Source: a virus. Taken from it: DNA of 30,571 bases. How positions within the stretch are numbered: position 1 is the first letter of the stretch; the number at the start of each line of letters is the position of its first letter. Shown here piece after piece: positions 19,576-30,571 of this stretch. The position numbers were made by a program, and so were the translations under genes. The stretch spans positions 1 through 30,571 of IMG/VR virus record IMGVR_UViG_3300037258_000478. One strand, written 5' to 3'. The notes under the pieces are model-generated. The model was given only the letters and a program-made list of their open reading frames with translations, was not told the origin of the DNA and did not search any database.

Positions 19576-20415
19576 TTACGAGCTGACATACGCCGAGCCG
19601 TCGTGTTTCATCACGACGACGCCGGTGTTCTGCAGCAGTTTGCTTCCGAAGAAGCCGGTGGTCCGCGCCCACGAATAGTCCTGTTCCTCGTGATAGCCGG
19701 CGAGGGCTTGGAGATCGCCGGTATTCACCGCATGGCCGATCGCATTGCGATGATAGAGGAAGCAGTATTCAAGGCTGGTCCCCTTGCCCACGATATTCGG
19801 GTGGATGATCCAGTTGATGCCGGCCCAGCGGCGAAACCGCTTGGTCGGCATGTTGAACGGCGTGATCTCGACATACGTGGCTTTCGTATATTCCGGGATC
19901 TGCATCAGATACGCGTCGAAGGCGAAGCTGATGACGCCGAACATGTTGTCTTCTTCGTCGACGTCGACGGCATTGTTGCCGAGGATGGTCTTCGCTTTGA
20001 CAACGAGGTTGAGCGAAGCCGTCACCGCATTGCCGGTGGTCTGCGTTCCGTTCTGCAGCTCACCGAGAATGTCGCTGTCGACCTTGCGGTTCAACACCTT
20101 GCGGGTCGTCTGCTGCATGATCCTGCGACCATCGCCTTGCGACGCGAAGATATTGAACGAGGTTCTCCTCACCAGGTCATTCCACTCGACGAGAGTGGCG
20201 GTGAACTGGTTGAGGTCGTCGGCGCGGGCCGGGATAAGGCCGTTGACGCCGCGAGTGTTGGGGGTCGCTCCGCCAGAGTCAGCGACCAGGAACGTTGCCT
20301 GGTTGCCTTTGAAGGTGGCCTCGGTCAGGACCGAGTGGCGGAGGTACGACACACCTTGCTCGAAGCCCATGACCGCTTCCTTGCGGTATTGGACTTGAAA
20401 GGCGCTATCGGACAC
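19576..20415 (-). CDS. Major capsid protein
   Basis: A 279-aa protein that is the best capsid candidate: it follows portal and scaffold, and precedes the head-tail and tail genes. It contains DDLNQFTATLVEWNDLVRRTSFNIFASQGDGRRIMQQTTRKVLNRKVDSDILGELQ, then FGVISFAFDAYLMQIPEYTKATYVEI and WIIHPNIVGKGTSLEYCFLYHRNAIGHAV. This pattern is characteristic of HK97-fold capsids of Bordetella phage BPP-1-like podoviruses (recalled, not searched). The start is a GTG at 20415 with GGAG 7 nt upstream; no in-frame ATG lies nearby upstream. A stronger Shine-Dalgarno serves an out-of-frame ATG at 20438, described separately. Confidence 0.87.
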   Translation of the reverse strand: MSDSAFQVQYRKEAVMGFEQGVSYLRHSVLTEATFKGNQATFLVADSGGATPNTRGVNGLIPARADDLNQFTATLVEWNDLVRRTSFNIFASQGDGRRIMQQTTRKVLNRKVDSDILGELQNGTQTTGNAVTASLNLVVKAKTILGNNAVDVDEEDNMFGVISFAFDAYLMQIPEYTKATYVEITPFNMPTKRFRRWAGINWIIHPNIVGKGTSLEYCFLYHRNAIGHAVNTGDLQALAGYHEEQDYSWARTTGFFGSKLLQNTGVVVMKHDGSAYVSS

Positions 20416-20438
20416 GTGTGTGCTCCATTGTTGAGCAT
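20325..20438 (-). other. Out-of-frame leader ORF overlapping the capsid start (37 codons)
   Basis: On the minus strand AGGAGG sits 6-7 nt before an ATG at 20438, a better ribosome site than that of the capsid GTG 23 nt further on. The frame runs 37 codons (MLNNGAHTCPIAPFKSNT...) and stops inside the capsid gene. Its protein has no recognisable features. It may act as a translated leader that delivers ribosomes to the capsid start, or the match may be chance. Confidence 0.35.
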
Positions 20439-20454
20439 CGTCGTGCCTCCTGTT

Positions 20455-20600
20455 CGGTTGTCCGCGAGCGCGCGCACGGCGCGGTTATCCGCGCTAAGCG
20501 CGCGGGCCGCATGCGTCGTCATCGGGCCTAGTGGGTTGGCGGGTGAAACGCGCTCAGTGTCGGGCCGCTTGCAGCGGTTATCCGGCGAGACGCGCGAATT
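20455..20600 (-). repeat. Three-copy CGGTTRTCCG repeat in the capsid leader
   Basis: On the plus strand CGGTTGTCCG (20455), CGGTTATCCG (20482) and CGGTTATCCG (20575) share a common core, each followed by GCG-rich sequence. The last two form an exact 11-bp repeat, GCGGTTATCCG, 93 bp apart. On the minus strand they read CGGAYAACCG. They lie between the antisense Tat gene and the capsid start, where an operator or transcription control would be expected. Confidence 0.5.
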
Positions 20601-20627
20601 GGATTAAGAAGCGGAGACCTTAAGCGC

Positions 20628-20723
20628 CTAGCGCAGCTCCGGCTCGTCGATCAGGCAAAACGCGATGACGCTGTGCCCCGAGGCGTCTTTGATTTGGGCG
20701 TTATTGAAGTACAAGGCGCCCAT
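20628..20723 (-). CDS. Possible 31-aa ORF or remnant gene, unknown
   Basis: A 31-codon frame from the ATG at 20723 to TAG. It reads MGALYFNNAQIKDASGHSVI and continues with AFCLIDEPELR, which is plausible protein composition rather than GC-frame noise. The frame stays open further upstream under the plus-strand gene, so it may be the tail end of an older minus-strand gene interrupted by the insertion. No Shine-Dalgarno precedes the ATG. A genuine small protein, a remnant, or chance are all possible. Confidence 0.25.
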   Translation of the reverse strand: MGALYFNNAQIKDASGHSVIAFCLIDEPELR

Positions 20724-20731
20724 CGTGCAAT
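20704..20731 (+). promoter_or_regulatory. Weak promoter candidate for the antisense gene
   Basis: TTGAAG (20704-20709) and TGCAAT (20726-20731) are 16 nt apart and each match four of six sigma-70 consensus bases. They would start transcription about 55 nt before the plus-strand Tat-signal gene. The match is weak, and this is the best candidate rather than a firm call. Confidence 0.22.
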
Positions 20732-20791
20732 CGTATTTTGCAACCGGTTGCTGGGATTGCGGTGACCGGCCCGTCGCGCTAGAAGCGCGCC

Positions 20792-21079
20792 ATGGACCGG
20801 CGGAAATTCATCAAAGCCATTGCGGCGGCGGCCGCGATCGGCAGCAATCCAATCGAAGCGATCGCGCCACCGCTCTACGGTTGGAGCCCGGGAATGGGCG
20901 TTACACCAGCCATGGCCAAAGCCACGGTTGTCCATTCTGCTTTTTTCGACGGGTCGTGGTGGGTCGTGTTCGATGATTTGCCGAACGCAGTTTGGCGGAT
21001 CCCAGAACGATTTAGCGACACAGCCATTCTACCAGGCGACAAGTTTGCCATTCCCTCGCGCCCATCGCCATTGAACTAG
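20792..21079 (+). CDS. Small protein with Tat-type signal peptide (moron candidate)
   Basis: A 95-aa protein and the only convincing plus-strand gene in the window. It starts MDRRKFIKAIAAAAAIGS: a twin-arginine motif (DRRKFIK, matching x-R-R-x-F-hydrophobic-K) followed by a short weakly hydrophobic helix. A possible signal cleavage follows A-M-A at residue 42. The mature part would be about 53 residues (VVHSAFFDGSWWVVFDDLPNAVWRIPERF...), aromatic-rich, with no family I recognise. Its composition looks less GC-rich than its neighbours, and only weak AGAAG precedes the ATG. An own-strand gene dropped into a late operon is typical of phage morons, which often act on the host envelope in the lysogen. 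Its TAG shares CTAG with the stop of the gene on the other strand. Confidence 0.6.
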   Translation: MDRRKFIKAIAAAAAIGSNPIEAIAPPLYGWSPGMGVTPAMAKATVVHSAFFDGSWWVVFDDLPNAVWRIPERFSDTAILPGDKFAIPSRPSPLN

Positions 21080-21486
21080 GCCGCCAGCAAAAACTTTTTC
21101 GCGGCCTCGAATGTAACCAGGCGCCCGTAGAGCGGCGCCGAGAGCTTGCGCGCAACGTGCGCGGCCAAGGTGCGCCGCATGTTGCGCTCGCTCACCCAGC
21201 GCGGCCGCTGCTGCTCGCATAGCGAATTGAATTCGGCGACGTGTGCCGGCAGCTCTTCCTCGAGACGAAATGCCGGATCGGCGATGTAACGCCGCCACCA
21301 TTCCTCGACGTTCGAGCCCTGTCGGAGGCCGTGCACCTGCTCATGCTCGTGGAGCTCAATCGGCACCGGAACTTCAGCCGGATTGAAGATGACGTCGCCC
21401 CACGCGAACAGAATGGCCTTGCCGCGCACGTGAAATGCCGCGTCGATCTCTTCGATCAGCGGCGGGTAGGCGTGGACGATCCGCAC
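21076..21486 (-). CDS. Small HExxH metallopeptidase-like phage protein
   Basis: A 136-aa protein with H48-E49-Q-V-H52 in PIELHEHEQVHGLRQG, the zinc-binding and catalytic signature of zincins; E61/E62 (SNVEEWWRRYI) or E76/E77 could supply a third ligand. FAWGDVIFNP and EEWWRRYIADPAFRLEEELPAHVAEF are features I recognise from a conserved phage family without a proven function. It lies between scaffold and capsid, so scaffold or capsid maturation is one possible role. The start is a GTG at 21486, 4 nt after the scaffold stop, with no clear Shine-Dalgarno, which suggests coupling. It converges with the Tat-signal gene, and the two share CTAG. Confidence 0.75.
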   Translation of the reverse strand: MRIVHAYPPLIEEIDAAFHVRGKAILFAWGDVIFNPAEVPVPIELHEHEQVHGLRQGSNVEEWWRRYIADPAFRLEEELPAHVAEFNSLCEQQRPRWVSERNMRRTLAAHVARKLSAPLYGRLVTFEAAKKFLLAA

Positions 21487-21490
21487 CAGA

Positions 21491-22570
21491 TCAGGCCGCG
21501 GCCTGGCCGCGCGACTTCATCTTGGCCTGAGCATCGTAGAGATCGCGCAGCTCGGCCTGCATGCGCTGGCCGGCATCGCCGCGCCAGTAGGCCGGGTTTT
21601 CCTTGCCGTCCTTGGTGTACATCTGGCCTTCGATCGCCGAGATCCGCTCGTTGATCGAGGTCATCGAGGAATTGCCGCCAGGCAGCACCAGGCTCGCGGC
21701 CGGATTGAGATCGCGTGCGACCGTGGCCGCCCATTTGTTGAAGGCCGCGGTGTTGCCGAGCATGCGGCCATCCGGCGTGCGCGCGGTCAAAAGTTCGACG
21801 CGCATATCCTCGGGCATGCCGGCGAGCAACGAGCCGACGGCGTTCATGTTGGTTTTGTAGTCGCCGGCGCCCCAGGCACCCATCAGTTCCTGCATGGCGG
21901 TCTGCTTGTGGCCGCCGTCGGCTTCCTCGCGCTGTGCCTCGGCGAGATCCTGCGCCTGGTAGTAGAACGTCATGGCCTGGTCGAACTGGCCCTGTGACCA
22001 GCCTTTATCGAGCGCAAACTTAGCGAACTCGCCGACCAGTGGCTTGTCGCCCTCGCCGAGCACAACACCGTCGGGCAATGCCAGCTTCTCGACGAAGCTC
22101 TCGGCCTTCTCCGGCAATCCGTTGGCCTGGCGCCAGGCGGCGGTCTGCTCCGGCGTTGCGTTCGCCGGCAGCGGCACCGGCGCGGCCTTGAGCTCGCCCT
22201 TCGAGATTTTTTCCTGCGTGCTGCGCAGCGAGCCGTAAAGCGCGGTCGGGTCGGTATATTTGGCAAGGTCGGTGAGCTTGGCCTTGTCACCGCCCGCGAG
22301 CAGCTCGCGCCAGTTGTCGGGGAATTTTTCCGGGCCATTTGCGGCCGCCGCCGCGGCCGCAGTTGCCGCAGCATCAGCGCCGCTGGCCGCAAGCGTGCCG
22401 GCGCCAGGATCGCCGCCGGCGGCGGCAGCACCGGCTGCAGGAGCTGCGGGAGCTGCGCCGGCGCCAGCCGCCGGAGCACCAGCTCCAGGCGCACCGCCGC
22501 CGGAACCATTCTCAGCGTCAAACAGCGGCAGCATGCTCACGCCACCGCGCAAGCGATCAATGATCGACAT
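21491..22570 (-). CDS. Capsid assembly scaffolding protein
   Basis: A 359-aa protein placed between portal and capsid. Residues about 22-80 are an extreme Ala/Gly/Pro low-complexity tract. The rest is helical and acidic: PEKFPDNWRELLAGGDKAKLTDLAKYTDPTALYGSLRSTQEKISKGEL, with a later PGGNSSMTSINERISAIEGQMYTKDGKENPAYWRGDAGQ and a basic C-terminal helix (LRDLYDAQAKMKSRG). The 'F.d.wr..la.gD......L.ky.dp.al..s....q..is.G' block is shared by many podovirus scaffolds. It would form the internal scaffold of the procapsid and leave before packaging. The ATG at 22570 is supported by GAGGTGACCG; a second ATG 12 codons in is possible. Confidence 0.85.
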   Translation of the reverse strand: MSIIDRLRGGVSMLPLFDAENGSGGGAPGAGAPAAGAGAAPAAPAAGAAAAGGDPGAGTLAASGADAAATAAAAAAANGPEKFPDNWRELLAGGDKAKLTDLAKYTDPTALYGSLRSTQEKISKGELKAAPVPLPANATPEQTAAWRQANGLPEKAESFVEKLALPDGVVLGEGDKPLVGEFAKFALDKGWSQGQFDQAMTFYYQAQDLAEAQREEADGGHKQTAMQELMGAWGAGDYKTNMNAVGSLLAGMPEDMRVELLTARTPDGRMLGNTAAFNKWAATVARDLNPAASLVLPGGNSSMTSINERISAIEGQMYTKDGKENPAYWRGDAGQRMQAELRDLYDAQAKMKSRGQAAA

Positions 22571-29886: not shown

Positions 29887-30089
29887 TTCAGCGGATCAAC
29901 CAGCAGCGCGATCATTTCGAGATCGACGGCACCCTCGACAATCAAGGCAACCAGTTCGTCGACATGGAGATTGCGCTGAGCTGCAGCAAATTCGAGAGCG
30001 GCATACATTTCGGTGTGCAACCATGCGTGCGCGACCGCGCAGCGCGGCGGCGTGAAGGCCGCCGCAGCAAGTGGCTCGTTCGCCGACAT
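29883..30089 (-). CDS. Small unknown protein between integrase and terS
   Basis: A 68-aa protein (MSANEPLAAAAFTPPRCAVA...), mostly helical (TEMYAALEFAAAQRNLHVDELVALIVEGAVDLEMIALLVDP). I do not recognise it. The ATG at 30089 shares one base with the integrase stop (TGATG), and its own TGA overlaps the terS start by four bases. A GTG one codon upstream is a possible alternative start. The length and both overlaps argue for a real gene that bridges the integrase and packaging frames. Confidence 0.6.
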   Translation of the reverse strand: MSANEPLAAAAFTPPRCAVAHAWLHTEMYAALEFAAAQRNLHVDELVALIVEGAVDLEMIALLVDPLK

Positions 30090-30571
30090 CACAGAAACCC
30101 TTTGCCGGCGTGGTTCTGGAAGCCGCGCGCGCGACGATCGTAGATCCGCAGCGTCTTGACCTCGCGATGGCGTGTGACGTCCATCACCTTGAAGACGTCG
30201 GCGCCGTCCTCGAGCGCGGAGGTGACAAAGCCGGCGCGCAGCGAATGGCCGGAGAATATCGATGGGTCAAATCCTGCTGCAGCTGCAGCGCGTTTGATGA
30301 TGCGCGCGATCGAGCGCGTGCTGAGCGGCGCAGCGCCGATCCGACCGTGACGATCGACCTCGCGAAATAGGGGACCGGTCGTGAATTGCGCGGCGGCGAC
30401 CCAGGCGTCGATGCTTGCGACGGGTTTGAGCCTGGCGCCGTTCGGAATCGCGACGGTCTGACCCTCGCCTTCCTGGTCGGTCTTTGACCGCCGGATGGTG
30501 ACGAAGAGCCCTTCGGGTGTGTGCTCGAGGTCGTTGACATTTAAGTCAACAAGCTCGGAACGCCGTAGAGC
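30089..30571 (-). CDS. Tyrosine recombinase (phage integrase), C-terminal part
   Basis: Only the last 160 residues lie in the window; the frame is open at 30571. They form the catalytic domain of a tyrosine recombinase. ALRRSEL carries the first catalytic Arg, at the window edge. SKTDQEGEG carries the Lys of the beta-hairpin, GHSLRAG the His-x-x-Arg box (near 30247-30236), and TRHREVKTLRIYDRR the second His and the nucleophilic Tyr (30142-30140). The ending RGFQNHAGKGFL is typical of an integrase group common in Rhizobiales. It would insert and excise the phage genome at an attachment site, which is not visible and probably lies upstream, outside the window. The gene is translationally coupled to the packaging operon downstream. 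Confidence 0.92.
   Translation of the reverse strand, partial: ALRRSELVDLNVNDLEHTPEGLFVTIRRSKTDQEGEGQTVAIPNGARLKPVASIDAWVAAAQFTTGPLFREVDRHGRIGAAPLSTRSIARIIKRAAAAAGFDPSIFSGHSLRAGFVTSALEDGADVFKVMDVTRHREVKTLRIYDRRARGFQNHAGKGFL

Follow-up and report, generated by a model that had tools for sequence, protein, structure and literature searches.

Hotspots of P2-like phages are reported to hold prophage cargo that includes anti-phage systems (PMC9122126), and a moron in a hotspot is an already known kind of thing. The locus described below resembles such hotspot morons in that a unique putative gene occupies a constant position of variable content in a temperate phage, with cargo that differs among relatives; it differs in that the 95-aa open reading frame (ORF) of interest has no recognised promoter or terminator of its own and no homolog.

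A second comparison is with Tat signal peptides (Pfam PF10518, TIGR01409), whose RR-x-F-I-K motif, Ala-rich h-region and AxA sites (residues 23–25 and 40–42) recur in the ORF, which begins MDRRKFIK; however, the ORF scores beneath the curated cut-offs of these short profiles (15.4 versus 22.7 bits and 14.7 versus 16.7 bits). Known Tat substrates are mostly larger proteins, and the mature domain here is ~50 residues. Similar real Tat-type N-termini exist, for example MERREFIKLCAAAGTLGANPVFAAA in a Betaproteobacteria genome.

The scaffold–capsid interval

The window, that is, the whole stretch of DNA analyzed, is a 30,571-bp virus record. Its minus strand carries all of the confident genes (terminase-like, head–tail connector, scaffold-like, capsid, and further genes), and a tRNA search of the window found none. 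The phage is podovirus-like, of alphaproteobacterial type, and temperate, the last because it encodes an integrase. The largest gap in the otherwise minus-strand map (20416–21075) is the site of the plus-strand 95-aa ORF, which converges with the HExxH gene, the two stops sharing 4 bp (CTAG, 21076–21079). The earlier note had placed a plus-strand ORF with an RR-x-F-I-K start between the scaffold/HExxH genes and the capsid gene, and both the ORF and the gene map agree with this; it had also described the flanking gap as non-coding, and here the gap stands and its emptiness does not, given the conserved capsid leader and a 31-codon frame that lie in it.

Features of the window and antisense ModE-type domains at other loci
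Feature	Position	Strand	Remarks
Major capsid protein	19576–20415	-	Pfam Phage_capsid_2, E=1.2e-16
Conserved capsid-gene leader	20416–20605	-	Downstream border of slot; contains the hairpin
Covarying RNA hairpin	20477–20513	-	GCGG-CC-stem-loop-stem-GAYAA-CCGC; about 65–95 nt upstream of capsid start
Inserted cargo segment	20606–21069		~465 bp; no counterpart in relatives having both flanks
31-codon frame	20628–20723	-	MGALYFNNAQIKDASGHSVIAFCLIDEPELR; native-like codon usage; upstream of 95-aa ORF
95-aa ORF, ATG start	20792–21079	+	Start MDRRKFIKAIAAAAAIG; RRKFIK at residues 3–8; full translation MDRRKFIKAIAAAAAIGSNPIEAIAPPLYGWSPGMGVTPAMAKATVVHSAFFDGSWWVVFDDLPNAVWRIPERFSDTAILPGDKFAIPSRPSPLN
HExxH gene	21076–21486	-	Another slot cargo gene; zinc-peptidase-like; conserved HExxH plus E/H residues
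Scaffold-like gene	21491–22570	-	Upstream border of slot; PHROG 3742; "scaffold" inferred from position
Integrase C-terminus	30089–30571		Tyrosine integrase; PF00589, E=1.5e-11
ModE-type N-terminal DNA-binding domain	L079:5249–5743	-	Antisense to operon
ModE-type N-terminal DNA-binding domain	L093:2334–2831	-	Antisense to operon
ModE-type N-terminal DNA-binding domain	L098:5224–5688	-	Antisense to operon
ModE-type N-terminal DNA-binding domain	L104:3043–3486	-	Antisense to operon

The interval between the scaffold-like and capsid genes is a cargo slot: the insert found in the window is absent at the locus in relatives, and different genes lie there in others. Of 80 loci with both neighbors, about 47 have a bare slot (about 140–300 bp from scaffold stop to capsid start) and about 33 a filled one (about 345–2,465 bp); many of the loci are near relatives, and the counts are not independent. 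Its contents include the HExxH gene (the window and 4 relatives, the family also occurring elsewhere in other viral contigs), HNH endonucleases (L043, L050), radical-SAM proteins of ~295 aa (L055, L056, L060, L069, L090, and others), the ModE-type domains (TIGR00637 matches with E 1e-23 to 4e-25, just under the cut-off), and an antisense 117-aa orphan (L015). L142, a Rhizobiales prophage, has a lysozyme of phage type there (PF00959, E=4.7e-31) together with a protein bearing a Sec-type signal. The antisense ModE-type regulators (L079, L098, L104, and others) share both slot and orientation with the 95-aa ORF, whereas they are unrelated to it in sequence and consist of DNA-binding domains that lack signal peptides. 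The slot thus has antisense passenger-gene precedents, and the idea that the ORF is a moron gains positional support.

Three further observations concern the cargo itself. In PADLOC, the radical-SAM proteins weakly resemble prokaryotic viperins (L056, E 3e-6), and the ModE-type domains of L079, L093, L098, and L104 lack the molybdate domain. The small HExxH family (about 130–147 aa), which has no Pfam or NCBIfam match and only a sub-threshold PHROG match, moves between phage loci, with members in L144, L149, and L150 as well as in the window.

Relatives were collected with the capsid protein, which found 22 close ones, and then from a larger viral-contig set and 8 loci from genomes; the 95-aa ORF is in none of them. 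Because relatives with the same HExxH gene have a shorter interval from this gene to the capsid start (about 240–290 bp in L002, L003, L008, and L009, and 660 bp in the window), and because the alignment of L002 reaches window positions 20568 and 21070 with no more than 64 bp of L002 separating the two, the inserted segment is specific to the window phage. Homology to L007 starts at window position 20605. Repeats of the kind that flank a transposon were sought around the segment, with short chance matches as the only result. The comparison with related prophages that the earlier note had proposed came out as absence of the segment at the locus in all relatives, with conserved flanks.

Coding evidence for the 95-aa ORF

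We consider it somewhat doubtful that the ORF arose by chance in inserted or decaying non-coding DNA and that its Tat-like start is a coincidence singled out afterwards. Dinucleotide shuffling of the segment yields a plus-strand ORF of at least 95 aa in 22% of cases (7% with an ATG), and ORF length is therefore no evidence for a gene. The ribosome-site and promoter results likewise favor the chance origin: there is no Shine–Dalgarno sequence before the ORF, only AAG, but 5 of the 21 scored minus-strand genes have no match either; and no sigma-70-like promoter was seen in a scan that is confined to this promoter type and covers alphaproteobacterial promoters poorly. The search for terminators gave one terminator-like site, a number equal to that in shuffles, and no significant one. 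Synonymous codon choice is no better than that of spurious ORFs, codon usage is non-native, codon bias is absent, and the overall codon-usage score is intermediate (+0.13 bits/codon, with genes at 0.20 to 0.68 and spurious ORFs at −0.27 ± 0.35), although it beats that of overlapping ORFs in other frames. Two of the latter, 20665–20976 (+) and 20651–20935 (−), were ruled out as real genes by this score, and fold confidence also speaks against the first.

The motif itself argues against coincidence. The strict pattern RR.F[LIVM]K within the first 20 residues occurred in 0 of 5,000 shuffles, and among 5,513 ORFs of at least 60 aa from the window and about 100 relatives the 95-aa ORF is the sole one to have it near the start; the pattern was picked after the ORF had been seen, and these figures thus somewhat overstate its rarity. 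The predicted fold points in the same direction. AlphaFold2 run on the single sequence gave a mean pLDDT of 64.9 and a pTM of 0.57, with residues 41–90 modeled fairly confidently as a small beta barrel (pLDDT about 70–80), far above the overlapping spurious ORF at 20665–20976 (pLDDT 34.1, pTM 0.19), a large contrast that nonetheless rests on one control ORF and not on a distribution.

A Foldseek search of the PDB returned nothing at E ≤ 0.001 (best 0.067, TM 0.3–0.44), a PDB sequence search likewise gave nothing at this threshold, and a search of a viral structure library found nothing consistent. The top PDB matches are mostly OB-type barrels, namely C-domains of ABC-ATPases and the di-Mop domain of ModE. 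In OB-fold barrels of the MOP/TOBE type (ModE di-Mop, ModG, ABC-ATPase C-domains) the last strand resembles LPGDKFAI of the 95-aa protein, whereas there is no sequence similarity, and a shared fold class is the most that could be claimed; we rejected assignment to the MOP/TOBE OB fold given the weak Foldseek scores and the moderate-confidence model.

Sequence comparisons mark the 95-aa protein as an orphan, in keeping with the earlier note, which had recognized no family and had called for a homology search. The absence of homologs from the searched sets, which also favors a chance ORF, extends to phages and plasmids (tblastn, chance matches only), to genome and viral contigs scanned with peptide patterns (close relatives only for the genome collection), to a degenerate WW(I/V)xFDD pattern scan (chance matches only), and to about 800 alphaproteobacterial genomes (Alphaproteobacteria and Rhizobiales searches), longer homologs included. 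PHROGs, NCBIfam, PADLOC, and PDB sequence searches matched only Tat profiles. Chance matches dismissed as homologs were antisense frames (L113, L117), Ala-rich stretches (L116), and a bare Tat signal (L111).

Decidedly less probable, in our estimate, is a pseudogene, in which the segment brought in a host Tat-exported gene of which the ORF is a shortened, non-working remnant. Such an origin would fit the uniqueness of the segment, the lower GC content, which the earlier note had judged by eye and which is borne out at 58.0% for the ORF versus 64.3% for the window (among the lowest 4.9% of 288-bp windows), the non-native codon use of the second half of the ORF, and the neighboring 31-codon frame, which resembles another remnant. 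No relative of this short frame was found, and it is possibly a tiny gene or the remnant of a minus-strand gene. The 95-aa frame is, however, unbroken from ATG to stop, its C-terminal domain is predicted as a complete barrel, and the roughly 800 genomes hold no longer homolog from which it could have been shortened. That the ORF is instead an envelope accessory for lysis, the slot being a place for lysis genes as the contents of L142 might suggest, is scarcely credible, as an ORF that lies antisense would be uncoupled from the late operon and neither a lysis-related profile match nor a catalytic motif was seen.

The capsid leader and its hairpin

The capsid-gene leader is untranslated and conserved, and it contains a hairpin in which an internal loop (CC / about GAYAA) separates an outer stem from a variable inner one. 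This hairpin is also present at L013:9904–9940, at L018:9903–9942, and at −100 to −72 from the capsid start in L031. Covariation supports it: both sides change in 7 of 9 pairs, and 84.8% of cells pair versus 24–42% in slid controls, figures that are favored by the derivation of the pairs from the tested sequences themselves; relatedness is not accounted for in the shuffle control. A covariance model recovers held-out hairpins in place in L018, L001, L019, L008, L100, L065, and L102, mostly with weak single scores. At 96 loci, some of which are near duplicates, the 150 nt before the capsid start contain a simple hairpin pattern in 51 cases; shuffles give 6.8 ± 2.8 and random windows 2.2 ± 1.4, and about 13 of the loci had served to define the pattern. 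The hairpin extends to Rhizobiaceae genomes (L029–L031) in which the prophage capsid is only about 33% identical, and an Rfam search gave no credible match. We propose it as a candidate element for controlling translation of the capsid gene; recurring across the clade, it is perhaps of more interest than the 95-aa ORF.

Closer to the capsid gene (window 20416–20445, minus strand), the capsid GTG has GGAG immediately before it and also follows a second strong ribosome site, AGGAGG. This site goes with ATGCTCAA in another frame and is kept in most close relatives (in L002 the start is not ATG); the pair possibly represents a leader peptide or a coupled start.

A possible lysogeny trait

The earlier note had proposed a moron that exports a small protein to the host envelope. 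The insert, the cargo hotspot with antisense genes, the temperate phage, and a fold unlike that of the control give this plausible proposal partial support, and the Tat-profile scores under the cut-offs weigh against it. We regard the moron reading of the ORF as reasonable, and we see about an even chance that the ORF is truly a small gene, carried as cargo in the slot of a temperate phage and encoding a Tat-exported lysogeny trait. Such a cargo gene would have reached the scaffold–capsid slot and would read against the late operon, and its own promoter would allow transcription in the lysogen independently of that operon. As a Tat-signal protein, its product would fold in the cytoplasm into a beta barrel of ~50 residues, cross the Tat pore as a folded barrel, and be cleaved after A25 or A42. 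The cleaved protein would then act in the periplasm and would most likely provide a lysogeny trait, for example an envelope change that stops other phages or benefits the host. We would take the functional assignment of the 95-aa protein no further than a putative small barrel of the periplasm that probably serves a lysogeny trait. A broader proposal, that it represents a new family of prophage-encoded Tat-exported mini barrels that remodel the host envelope (e.g., for superinfection exclusion) and lie antisense in the slot for lysogeny expression while the head operon is off, seems to us unlikely.

If true, the moron reading would add one more exported orphan to lysogeny genes. More usefully, it would define a scaffold–capsid cargo slot in a large, little-studied environmental group of podovirus-like temperate phages, a slot in which new genes that act against phages or modify the host could be sought across several hundred contigs or more.
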